Positions 75-46,165 of a DNA stretch of 64,000 bases are shown in pieces; the stretch's first letter is position 1; each line of letters begins with the position of its first letter. The DNA comes from Thermosipho sp. (in: thermotogales) (GTDB taxonomy: Bacteria > Thermotogota > Thermotogae > Thermotogales > Fervidobacteriaceae). The stretch covers positions 1-64,000 of the forward strand of contig JACDNZ010000009.1 of the NCBI GenBank assembly GCA_017656345.1, read 5' to 3'. The translations under genes and the position numbers were made by a program. Below the pieces are notes generated by a model. That model searched no databases. It was not told the DNA's origin and saw only the letters and a program-made list of their open reading frames with translations.

Positions 75-168
75 GTGGAAGCGCCCGCTTCCCACCCTTA
101 GCCTAAGGCGAAAGGGTTAATAAAATCAGCTTTTGTGTACACAATATTGGCGGGCGCATGCTCGCCAA
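75..168 (+). promoter_or_regulatory. infC-rpmI-rplT leader with competing hairpins
   Basis: Three pairings are visible. Hairpin A pairs 75-82 with 87-95 (GTGGAAGC with GCTTCCCAC, one bulged C). Hairpin B pairs ACCCTT (94-99) with AAGGGT (112-117) around an inner GCC/GGC. The third is the terminator stem 147-155/160-168. Bases 81-88 (GCGCCCGC) are also a perfect 8-bp complement of 150-157 (GCGGGCGC), which form most of the terminator's 5' arm. Pairing 81-88 with 150-157 therefore prevents the terminator, while hairpin A hides 81-88 and allows it. This is the logic of the L20-controlled infC leader of Bacillus; that L20 is the ligand here is inferred from the downstream genes. Confidence 0.75.
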
Positions 169-175
169 ATTTTTT
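147..175 (+). terminator. Intrinsic terminator (attenuator) before infC
   Basis: TTGGCGGGC (147-155) pairs with GCTCGCCAA (160-168) through one G-U pair and a GCAT loop. The run TTTTTT follows at 170-175. It lies just upstream of the infC SD, so it can stop transcription before the operon; read-through would need the alternative pairing described for the leader. Confidence 0.8.
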
Positions 176-192
176 ATATATGGGAGGGGAAA

Positions 193-702
193 ATTATCGA
201 TAAAATAATTAAAAATGAGGAAATTAGGGCACCTGAGGTTAGGGTGGTTGATCAAGAGGGTAAACAAATAGGTATTATGCCAACCAATCAGGCACTAGAA
301 CTTGCTTATTCAAAAAAATTAGATCTGATACTGGTAGCTCCAAACGCAAATCCTCCAGTTGCTAAGATTATGGACTATGGAAAATATAAATATGAGCTTG
401 CAAAACGAGAAAAGAAAGCAAAAAAGAATCAAAAAATCATCGAAGTAAAACAGATGAAATTCAGAATTAAAATTGATGAACATGATTATCAAACTAAAGT
501 AAGACATATTAAAAGATTTTTAGAAGATGGGAACAAAGTAAGAGTTGTAATAATGTTTAGAGGACGTGAACTCGCATTTGCTGACAAGGGTAAGGAAATA
601 CTTGAAAGAGTAATAGCTGATTTACAAGATATAGCAACGGTTGAAAAACCACCAAAACTTGAGGGAAGAGATATGTGGATGATGCTAAAACCAAAGAATT
701 AA
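193..702 (+). CDS. infC: Translation initiation factor IF-3, non-AUG start
   Basis: IF-3 binds the 30S subunit, prevents premature 50S joining and checks the start codon and initiator tRNA. The N-terminal domain opens with NEEIRAPEVRVVDQEG, followed by the lysine-rich linker (KREKKAKKNQK) and the C-terminal domain (VKQMKFRIKIDEHDYQTK, VRVVIMFRGRE). About 169 residues is usual. There is no ATG at the family's N-terminus. The SD GGGAGGGG (182-189) is followed in frame by ATT (193) and ATC (196), both at usable distance. A TTG at 133 is also in frame but would place the attenuator inside the gene. AUU/AUC starts are the known autoregulatory signature of infC. First gene of infC-rpmI-rplT. Confidence 0.93.
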   Translation: MIDKIIKNEEIRAPEVRVVDQEGKQIGIMPTNQALELAYSKKLDLILVAPNANPPVAKIMDYGKYKYELAKREKKAKKNQKIIEVKQMKFRIKIDEHDYQTKVRHIKRFLEDGNKVRVVIMFRGRELAFADKGKEILERVIADLQDIATVEKPPKLEGRDMWMMLKPKN

Positions 703-713
703 GGAGGGAAAGC

Positions 714-917
714 ATGGCCAAGAATAAGATGAAGACACACAAAACAGCAGCCAAAAGATTCAAATTAACAAAAACAGGTAAGTTAATGAGAAGACGAGCG
801 TTTGCATGGCACAAAACCGGTAAAAAAAGACGCTCAACTCTCAGAAAATTAAGACTTGAAGTTGAAGTTAAACCTGCAGATAAAAAAAGAATTTTAAGAG
901 TACTCGGAAAAAGATAA
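714..917 (+). CDS. rpmI: 50S ribosomal protein L35
   Basis: A 67-residue, very basic protein starting MAKNKMKTHKTAAKRFK and containing the family signature AFAWHKTGKKRR. L35 is a late-assembling protein of the large subunit that contacts 23S rRNA. The start is the ATG at 714 after AAGGAGGGAA; an in-frame TTG at 675 would overlap infC and adds a non-homologous extension. It lies 11 bases after the infC stop, in the conserved infC-rpmI-rplT order. Confidence 0.96.
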   Translation: MAKNKMKTHKTAAKRFKLTKTGKLMRRRAFAWHKTGKKRRSTLRKLRLEVEVKPADKKRILRVLGKR

Positions 918-937: not shown

Positions 938-1294
938 ATGCGCGTAAAAAACGCAGTCAACGCAAAGAAAAAAAGAAAAAAGATTTTGAAAGCAGTTAAG
1001 GGATACAGAGGTGCTTTAAGCAGAAGATATAGACTAGCAAAGCAAGCTTACATAAAAGCTAAAAAACATGCATACGTTGGCAGAAAATTAAAGAAGAGAA
1101 ATTTCAGAAAATTATGGATTACTAGAATAAATATTGCTGCAAGAAATGAAGGTTTAAAATATAATGAGTTAATTCATGGTTTAAAACTTGCAGGTATTTC
1201 AATTAACAGGAAGATGCTCGCTGAACTAGCAGTTAATGATCCCGAATCATTCAAAGAATACGTAAATATAGCCAAAGAAGCTATAAGCAAATAA
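938..1294 (+). CDS. rplT: 50S ribosomal protein L20
   Basis: 118 residues, the usual length. The basic N-terminal tail (MRVKNAVNAKKKRKKILKA) and YRGALSRRYRLAKQA are typical, as is the globular C-terminal half with LWITRINIAARNEGLKYNEL. L20 organises 23S rRNA early in 50S assembly and in several bacteria represses its own operon by binding a leader RNA; the structured leader at 75-168 is the likely target. The SD is GGAAGGGAGG. No terminator follows it before the rpsB leader. Confidence 0.97.
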   Translation: MRVKNAVNAKKKRKKILKAVKGYRGALSRRYRLAKQAYIKAKKHAYVGRKLKKRNFRKLWITRINIAARNEGLKYNELIHGLKLAGISINRKMLAELAVNDPESFKEYVNIAKEAISK

Positions 1295-43618: not shown

Positions 43619-44554
43619 ATGAAAAAACTAACTGTTTTGCTGGTAATTGTTTTATCAGTGCTGGTAGTATTTAGTGCAGATTTTTACATCGTCAAAGAGG
43701 GAGATACTTTATCAAAAATAGCAAAAGAAACTGGGTTAACTATTGAGGAATTAGTGAAATTTAACAACATCGAAAATCCTGACCTCATTGTGGTAGGTCA
43801 GAAACTAAGACTTACACCACCTTATACCCAGAAAGATTTAAACGAACAAATGGTTATGGCAATGCTTTGGTACCAGAATTCTGGTGAAATGAGAGCTCTG
43901 GCTTACCAAGCTTTCAATATTGCAAAATTGATTTATGATATGGATTTAAAAGAAGAATCTACAAAACCACGTGCAGTTATTGTCGATGTTGACGAAACCG
44001 TTCTTGATAACTCCCCATATGACGCAGGACATATAGGAACTAACAATGCATATCCAAAAGGATGGACTGAATGGTGTGAAGCAAGACTTGCTACACCAAT
44101 TCCAGGTGCTGTAGAATTTCTCAATTACGTCGCAAAAACAGGCGGTGTAGTATTTTATATTACAAACAGAAGCGAAAGCGTAAAACAAGCAACAATTGAC
44201 AATCTTAAAATGCTTGGATTCCCATTTGCTGACGAAGAACATGTTTTAACAAAAACAACAACTTCCGATAAAGAACCAAGAAGACAATTAGTTGCAGAAA
44301 AATACAAGATAGTCCTTTTAATGGGAGACAACCTAAATGACTTTTCTTCACTCTTCAGAAAAAAAGGTGTTGAAGAAAGAAATGAACTTGTAGATCAAAT
44401 GAAAGAAATGTGGGGAACTAAGTTCATAGTTCTTCCAAACCCAATTTACGGAGATTGGGAAGGTGCTGTTTACAACTACAACTGGGGATTATCTCCAGAA
44501 GGAAAAGATAAAGCAAGAAAAGAACACCTTTTCATGTGGAGATACGAAGAATAA
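43619..44554 (+). CDS. LysM-HAD class B/e(P4)-type acid phosphatase
   Basis: 311 residues. Signal peptide (1-20, no lipobox), then a LysM domain at 22-65 (YIVKEGDTLSKIAKETGL to GQKLRL) for peptidoglycan attachment, then an HAD IIIB phosphatase of the e(P4) lipoprotein family: catalytic VDVDETVLDN (Asp123, Asp125), VFYITNRSE, and LMGDNLNDF. Relatives are usually lipoproteins that dephosphorylate nucleotides outside the cell; here the LysM domain seems to replace the lipid anchor. SD AAAGGGGGGT. Monocistronic, with its own terminator. Confidence 0.9.
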   Translation: MKKLTVLLVIVLSVLVVFSADFYIVKEGDTLSKIAKETGLTIEELVKFNNIENPDLIVVGQKLRLTPPYTQKDLNEQMVMAMLWYQNSGEMRALAYQAFNIAKLIYDMDLKEESTKPRAVIVDVDETVLDNSPYDAGHIGTNNAYPKGWTEWCEARLATPIPGAVEFLNYVAKTGGVVFYITNRSESVKQATIDNLKMLGFPFADEEHVLTKTTTSDKEPRRQLVAEKYKIVLLMGDNLNDFSSLFRKKGVEERNELVDQMKEMWGTKFIVLPNPIYGDWEGAVYNYNWGLSPEGKDKARKEHLFMWRYEE

Positions 44555-44575
44555 TCTGGTAAATAACTCAAAAAG

Positions 44576-44608
44576 CATGGCTCCATTTCTGGAGCCATGT
44601 TTTTTTTA
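44576..44608 (+). terminator. Terminator after phosphatase gene
   Basis: CATGGCTCC (44576-44584) pairs with GGAGCCATG (44591-44599), then a nine-T run (44600-44608). Confidence 0.95.
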
Positions 44609-46165
44609 ATCAACTCTTCTCTGATTTTCTCTATCAAACTCTTCTTTCATAGCATACATCCTTTTATCTGCCTCTTCAAAAGTTTTATCAAATGATTCAT
44701 TAAATTTTGCAATCCCCCATGAAAATGTTGGCTTTATACTATTAGAAGATTTTAATTCTCTAAAAACTCTTGAAATAATTTCCTCGGCCCTATTGAACGG
44801 ACAATTTTTTAACACTATCAAAAATTCGTCCCCGCCTATTCTTATAATGTAATCACTACTCCTAATATTATTCTTTACAAACTTAACAAAATCTTTTAAA
44901 ATCTTATCTCCTACTTTGTGTCCAAATGTATCGTTTATAAACTTTAAACTATTTATATCAACAAAAATAAGAATATCACTTTCAGTCAACGAAATTGACT
45001 CTAAAACTCCTCGGTTATAAGCTCCAGTTAATTTATCAACAACACTTTGTTCATATGCTTCTTGTACTTCATTAACCATTTTTTTGTATTCATAAATAAT
45101 ATTATAGGAAAAACCAAAAAATAGTGTAATTATTCCATAATTAGATAAAAACTTATTGTTATAATGCAGAAATAATGTCAGTGAATCATGTGAAACTGTT
45201 AAGAAAAAGAAACTTGAAGTAAACAAGCTAATATTTATTTTTGATTTGATAGAAATGAAGAAAAAGAATAAAGAATTCAAAAAAATAACTGGCGCAAAAG
45301 AATTAGTCATTAATTTCATGACATAAAAAGAGGGAGCCAAAAGCAACGAAAAACCTATAACATAATTTGTATATCTCAAAATTCTAATTAACAATATTTC
45401 TTTTAAATTTAGATAGAGATACGTTCCTGTTATTAAAAATGAAAACGCAAAGTATATTGATGAAATAAAAATTTTTCTTAAAATAAACATTGAATAAATT
45501 GATCCCATGCTTTTCAATGGTAAAAGATCTATCATCCAGATTGATCCTAATAAACTTGTTAAAAAGAAATAAATAAATGCTGTTTTCTTCCTACCAACCA
45601 CATTTTTCGATAGAAATAACAAAATAAACGATAAAGCTAAAACCATTCCTATGGAAAAACTTAAAACATCTCCGGTAAGAAAACTCAAAATATTATATTT
45701 TTTAAGTTGACTTTCATCAATCAAATAGGGTACAAAATCCATTCCTAACTCATATACACCATGCAAGGTAATTTTAATTTCATTAGTAGTTTCTGGAAGT
45801 TGGAAAATCAAAGGTTGATACCAAATATGAGCCGTCTCTTTAGTAAAACCATATGAACCAACTAAGTTATCATTCGCATAAATTTTAATATATGAAGTAT
45901 CAACCTGTGGAAAATAAAGATAAACATTTTCAGTTAACTCTGGTATCTTAGCATATAATGTTAAATGAGTTGGTTCTTTTAACACAAAATAGAATGGAAC
46001 ATTTAAATTTTCACCAAATTGTTCTTTATTATCAAGTACTTTAAACTTATAGATTCCTACTCCTTTTGGTACAAGGGTCCACCTAAATATTAAAACTATA
46101 ATTATAAATGCTACTGTTGAAATCAAAAAATTTAAAATGAAATTCTTTAGTTTAATAAAGATCAC
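44606..46165 (-). CDS. Membrane diguanylate cyclase (GGDEF)
   Basis: About 519 residues. One N-terminal helix (about 10-28), an extracytoplasmic beta domain to about residue 170 resembling 7TMR-DISM sensors, seven or so helices (about 175-370), then a GGDEF domain beginning DKLTGAYNRGVLE. The active loop RIGGDEFLIV is intact and RSSD five residues upstream gives the c-di-GMP inhibitory site, so it should make c-di-GMP. The stop lies in the tail of the convergent phosphatase terminator. The GTG at 46165 overlaps the SD (AAGGAGTGA); an in-frame AUU at 46156 has better spacing. Confidence 0.88.
   Translation of the reverse strand: MIFIKLKNFILNFLISTVAFIIIVLIFRWTLVPKGVGIYKFKVLDNKEQFGENLNVPFYFVLKEPTHLTLYAKIPELTENVYLYFPQVDTSYIKIYANDNLVGSYGFTKETAHIWYQPLIFQLPETTNEIKITLHGVYELGMDFVPYLIDESQLKKYNILSFLTGDVLSFSIGMVLALSFILLFLSKNVVGRKKTAFIYFFLTSLLGSIWMIDLLPLKSMGSIYSMFILRKIFISSIYFAFSFLITGTYLYLNLKEILLIRILRYTNYVIGFSLLLAPSFYVMKLMTNSFAPVIFLNSLFFFFISIKSKINISLFTSSFFFLTVSHDSLTLFLHYNNKFLSNYGIITLFFGFSYNIIYEYKKMVNEVQEAYEQSVVDKLTGAYNRGVLESISLTESDILIFVDINSLKFINDTFGHKVGDKILKDFVKFVKNNIRSSDYIIRIGGDEFLIVLKNCPFNRAEEIISRVFRELKSSNSIKPTFSWGIAKFNESFDKTFEEADKRMYAMKEEFDRENQRRVD

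Follow-up and report, generated by a model that had tools for sequence, protein, structure and literature searches.

Results

The window, i.e. the whole 64,000-nt stretch of DNA analysed here, begins inside a gene for tRNA-Lys(CUU), which is followed by a short leader and by infC, rpmI and rplT (Table 1). A second contig (C21; L002) ends in the matching part of an apparent tRNA-Lys(UUU). The assembly seems to be broken at a tRNA repeat and, therefore, the upstream side of the tRNA is not visible in this genome. The infC start codon was judged from the reading frame and the Shine-Dalgarno sequence; by a simple Shine-Dalgarno rule, infC apparently starts with AUU, AUC or AUA, and not with AUG, in 84 of 98 Thermotogota leaders. 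A non-AUG start codon of the IF3 gene is known in other organisms, and the AUU-type start suggests that translational self-control by IF3 is added to the attenuator described below.

Table 1. Features of the tRNA-Lys-infC-rpmI-rplT region (positions in the window)
Feature	Position	Strand	Details and basis
tRNA-Lys, 3' part, anticodon CUU, cut by contig start	1-53	+	Rfam tRNA match 1-50; CCA 51-53
AAG 5' of P1	73-75	+	A in 92/93, A in 93/93 and G in 93/93 Thermotogota leaders
P1 hairpin (anti-antiterminator; helix H1 of L20 leader)	77-92	+	77-82/87-92, loop 83-86; covariation, RF00558 alignment
Antiterminator, 5' strand	81-89	+	P1 apex and 3' arm; pairs with 149-157; covaries in relatives
P2 (helix H2 of L20 leader)	94-117	+	94-97/114-117, inner stem 101-103/107-109; covariation
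Intrinsic terminator	147-175	+	Stem 147-155/160-168, U-run 170-175
Antiterminator, 3' strand	149-157	+	Most of the terminator 5' arm
infC Shine-Dalgarno GGAGG	183-187	+	Sequence
infC (IF3)	193-702	+	Pfam IF3_N, IF3_C; probable start AUU 193-195 (or AUC 196-198)
rpmI (ribosomal protein L35)	714-917	+	Pfam PF01632
rplT (ribosomal protein L20), presumed regulator	938-1294	+	Pfam PF00453

Further downstream, at 1283-1372 and exactly between rplT and rpsB, lies a match to RF00127 (t44), the rpsB (S2) leader of Gammaproteobacteria, that scores 33.6 bits with a gathering score of 44. RF00127 matches are present in 34 of 103 Thermotogota genomes, the control T. maritima among them, with one match above the cut-off; of 30 fetched loci, 22 have an rpsB gene after the match, and most display a recognisable CACAC..CGGUGCC..GGUCGG..GGAGG core. 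Elements of this type are probably S2 leaders in Thermotogota.

The initial annotation described bases 81-88 as a perfect complement of 150-157, taken to form most of the 5' arm of a terminator at 147-175, and placed the same bases 81-88 in a second hairpin at 75-95. The complementarity of 81-88 (GCGCCCGC) to 150-157 (GCGGGCGC) is exact and is lengthened by a U89-G149 pair; 150-157 lie in the terminator 5' arm and contribute six bases to its stem and two to its loop. The second hairpin also exists; however, only 77-82/87-92 (P1) covaries and is conserved, the 76/94 pair being non-standard in 49 of 91 relatives without covariation and the 75/95 pair being invariant and, hence, uninformative. 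Four of the eight bases 81-88 are paired within P1 and four are in its loop. A different 5' hairpin (72-78/85-91), the MFE choice at 37 °C, was rejected because P1 is more stable from 55 °C up and is the covarying helix. The helix P2, which forms the second half of the L20 site region known from the literature, had escaped the initial annotation, as had the tRNA-Lys(CUU) that is found just upstream throughout the phylum.

Searched against 4227 families, the leader matched RF00558 (L20_leader) over its full length (positions 1-127 of 127) with 45.5 bits and, for the whole 64-kb window, an E value of 9.3e-6. This score is under the gathering score of 58.7, and Rfam at gathering cut-offs reports only tRNAs. 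The gathering score is an operational cut-off and not a biological feature, and we did not take the shortfall as excluding membership because Bacillota leaders upstream of infC fall short too (L117, 51.2 bits; L073, 49.6 bits; L130, 48.3 bits). Among Thermotogota, 77 of 103 genomes contain RF00558 matches, mostly just upstream of infC, and T. maritima was positive as a control. A second match in the window (44509-44612) was rejected as spurious, being an ordinary intrinsic terminator that follows a gene for an acid-phosphatase-like protein with a LysM repeat. Because this plain terminator scores 37.9 bits, low RF00558 scores are non-specific and, therefore, we built a core model (R1) that comprises P1 and P2, lacks the terminator and derives from 91 distinct Thermotogota leaders.

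The leader contains H1 and H2 with the conserved junction (near-invariant AAG.GGA...UCCCACC) as well as an intrinsic terminator, the 5' arm of which has H1 as an alternative partner, as supported by covariation, folding and shuffles. A73-A74 and C95-G116/C96-G115 are near-invariant and fit the description of the L20 mimicry site, in which an AA dimer and two adjacent G-C pairs imitate 23S rRNA (PMC7247131); comparison by eye with the 23S rRNA of E. coli and two relatives gave only loosely similar words and no residue-level match to the H40/H41 site. The window's own assembly contains no 23S rRNA. The analogy to the L20-controlled leader of Bacillus drawn in the initial annotation is supported by the full-length RF00558 match, the infC-rpmI-rplT operon and the conserved junction. 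By contrast, its description of the leader as differently built is not: both leaders belong to the same Rfam family over the full length, and the Thermotogota-only model recovers Bacillota leaders. We conclude, from sequence and comparison, that the leader is an RNA switch of the known ribosomal-protein-L20 leader type and a well-supported addition to the described L20_leader family.

We located infC in 99 of 103 Thermotogota genomes and took 98 leaders, for which families were inferred (f1 includes Fervidobacterium, f3 represents Thermotogaceae and f9 Kosmotogaceae). P1 and a terminator at the matching place were recognised automatically in 93 leaders and by eye in three more (G050, G051, G062); one of the remaining leaders is cut by its contig (G031) and the other looks degenerate (G047). 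In a 91-sequence alignment, 93.1% of the P1 and P2 cells were paired versus 83.8% in shuffles, two-sided changes numbered 109 versus 30, and no shift of the partners by 1-3 columns came near the real pairing. For P1, 98.1% of the cells were paired, with two-sided changes at four of six pairs; for P2, such changes occurred at three of five pairs, and replacement of A94-U117 by G-C in four leaders supports this helix.

For the antiterminator, the P1 apex was anchored on CCC and the terminator arm on GGG, each independently. At the three variable pair positions, 30, 33 and 34 of 34 distinct rows paired versus 14, 26 and 26 in shuffles, the flanking pairs being G-C, C-G, U-A or A-U among the leaders, and none of 5000 whole-row permutations was as good. 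Relatedness inflates such between-family tests, and the covariation inside family f10 alone (p 0.0002) is the stricter result; the core antiterminator pairs are invariant within f1, the family of the window, and the signal is that of the between-family comparison and of f10. We considered whether the 8-base complementarity could be a chance match between two GC-rich hairpins. Both segments are GC-rich, and in 0.6% of composition shuffles the hairpin gained a perfect 8-nt complement to the terminator arm (0.08% for anywhere in 60-140); however, the compensatory changes across the 34 distinct leaders refute a chance origin, which we regard as practically negligible. Moreover, none of 200 terminator-arm shuffles paired with the hairpin as well as the real arm, and, outside f9, 73 of 79 leaders had a complementarity of P1 to the terminator arm that exceeded 95% of shuffles.

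In equilibrium folding of the growing transcript at 65 °C, P1 was predicted at 0.94 up to base 152, the antiterminator at 158-164 (0.98 at 158-160) and the terminator at 0.96-1.00 from base 166 on; the antiterminator intermediate was predicted in 93 of 93 leaders. For the full-length leader, the predicted stability of P1+P2+terminator exceeded that of antiterminator+P2 by about 5-7 kcal/mol at 37-55 °C and 4 kcal/mol at 65 °C. Because the full-length equilibrium favours the terminated state, read-through would require the antiterminator to act as a kinetic trap. The covariation that the initial annotation called for is present and, in line with these predictions, supports its proposal of a switch in which terminator, antiterminator and anti-antiterminator of the infC-rpmI-rplT leader exclude one another.

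The register of the antiterminator differs between families. In most of them the antiterminator strand comes from P1: f1, f10, f11, part of f3 and others use the P1 apex, while f2 and the T. maritima group use the P1 3' arm. In the Kosmotogaceae, the complementarity of P1 to the terminator arm beat 95% of shuffles in 0 of 14 leaders and that of the P2 5' arm in 11 of 14, and the Kosmotogaceae appear to have moved the antiterminator from P1 to P2. In leaders of this family such as L160 (326-389) and L157 (164-227), a P2 5' arm CCCGCC(UG) is accompanied by a terminator with (CA)GGCGGG.

Using ARAGORN, we found an intact tRNA-Lys(ctt) directly upstream in 92 of 92 Thermotogota leaders with enough upstream sequence, while at the infC loci of other phyla an upstream tRNA-Lys was found in 0 of 74. 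The gap from the end of the tRNA to AAG is 3-64 nt, with medians of 5-24 nt in multi-member families and a range of 3-23 nt in f2 and f8. Because in many leaders this gap is hardly, if at all, wide enough for a promoter, we infer that tRNA and leader are co-transcribed. We also considered a promoter between tRNA and leader: TATAAT at 64-69 resembles a -10 box; however, a consensus scan found no promoter there, the motif was not seen in the same-genus leaders inspected and the f2 and f8 gaps argue against it. A transcriptome study of T. maritima (PMC3636130) mapped start sites, and its main text does not discuss infC.

The constant tRNA and the gaps, in many leaders too short for a separate promoter, would also fit a terminator that just ends the tRNA-Lys transcript, with a fixed fraction of polymerases reading into infC and with P1/P2 as a processing or stability element without a role for L20. 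A constitutive terminator, however, has no need of an antiterminator pairing that covaries with the terminator arm across families, and the P1/P2 junction of the L20 leader is also present in Bacillota that lack an upstream tRNA. We consider this explanation improbable and favour a regulated terminator.

The core model was applied to infC-anchored loci, as whole-genome scans of high-GC genomes missed known sites. At 74 infC loci outside Thermotogota, it detected leaders, most of them from Bacillota, that precede infC by 60-190 bases and have E values down to 1e-17; at 30 Actinomycetota infC loci, it detected 10 leaders. The Actinomycetota cases comprise L111 (2249-2312), L128 (2252-2315), L101 (2278-2345) and loci in L214-L239, with Brevibacterium and Corynebacterium among the named carriers. 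In Corynebacterium, the terminator 5' arm carries a near copy of the P1 3' arm (AACUCCCAC), which would make the P1 5' arm a possible antiterminator strand. The L20-leader core is, thus, common to several phyla.

Discussion

Sequence and comparison establish that the leader has three conserved and mutually exclusive helices, that it precedes the infC-rpmI-rplT operon and that it matches RF00558; that L20 is the ligand, where it binds and in which direction it acts would follow by analogy with B. subtilis. There, the terminator is stabilised by L20 bound at the H1/H2 junction (PMC6097659, PMC10931766), with about 11-fold repression (PMC6097659). On this basis, the leader is very probably an autogenous transcription attenuator of the L20-leader type. 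Polymerase would pass tRNA-Lys and make P1 and then P2; the emerging 149-157 segment could then invade P1 and pair with 81-89 to form the antiterminator. If the antiterminator lasted until polymerase had cleared the U-run, the terminator would be blocked and infC-rpmI-rplT transcribed. Excess free L20 would bind the P1/P2 junction and keep P1 closed, and the terminator would then switch off the operon for IF3, L35 and L20; L20 would need only to hold P1 shut.

A genuine switch that answers to a signal other than L20, e.g. temperature, IF3 or L35, seems to us very improbable. The carriers include thermophiles, the folding predictions place the states in a temperature-dependent balance and IF3, with its AUU-type start, probably has its own translational control; however, the conserved residues cluster in the P1/P2 junction, the L20 binding site in B. 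subtilis, and L20 is itself a product of the operon.

The operon and the H1-H2-terminator order are like those of the B. subtilis infC-rpmI-rplT leader (Choonee et al. 2007, as presented in PMC6097659 and PMC10931766), and the conserved H1/H2 junction, a P1 apex complementary to the terminator arm and the full-length model match are common to both. The Thermosipho leader differs in that no separate promoter is apparent and tRNA-Lys(CUU) lies directly upstream, in that H1 is closed by G-C (GGA/UCC) rather than by A-U (AGA/UCU) as in most Bacillota leaders compared, and in that it scores under the RF00558 gathering value. The L20 operators of E. coli, a pseudoknot and a hairpin upstream of rpmI, likewise serve autoregulation of L35 and L20 by L20 and are thought to mimic the 23S rRNA site (PMC10931766), but they are translational, do not control infC and have another RNA architecture without a terminator. 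The L10(L12)4 attenuator of B. subtilis rplJL (PMC4538822, as outlined in PMC10931766) resembles our proposal in that a ribosomal protein stabilises an anti-antiterminator and promotes termination; as outlined there, protein, operon and RNA (a kink-turn) are different.

The L20 leader is not new in Thermotogales: in 2013, Sun et al. described the same motif in the same phylum and suggested its acquisition from Firmicutes, with no anatomy given in the accessible text of that report (PMC3766115). By comparison, we find the motif to be near-universal in the phylum with a constant tRNA-Lys linkage and with an antiterminator register that differs by family; therefore, any acquisition would predate the radiation of the phylum. 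In the literature searched, the coverage of which is incomplete, we found no description of the tRNA-Lys linkage, the family-specific registers or the Actinomycetota cases. In later papers, the L20 leader is described as narrowly distributed to the Firmicutes (PMC6097659), and L20 RNA as known in Gammaproteobacteria and Firmicutes (PMC7247131).

Taken jointly, we lean slightly towards an attenuator that forms a unit with tRNA-Lys(CUU), has no promoter of its own, has its read-through set by L20 and its 5' end generated by processing, and whose antiterminator strand was handed over from P1 to P2 in Kosmotogaceae. Polymerase would always make tRNA-Lys, L20 would set only the share of transcription that continues into IF3-L35-L20, and processing of the tRNA 3' end would create the leader 5' end. 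If the fusion to the tRNA is real, one initiation event would couple the synthesis of a tRNA to that of three translation proteins.

By analogy with B. subtilis, the leader probably lets the cell halt the production of L20, L35 and IF3 once free L20 accumulates. The occurrence throughout the phylum with an unchanging tRNA-Lys neighbour, and that of the same core in Bacillota as well as in some Actinomycetota, argue for a greater age or mobility of L20 leaders than the narrow Firmicutes distribution implies. Altogether, one RNA switch can be traced across a phylum, with a protein-facing part that is nearly constant and an expression platform that drifts.
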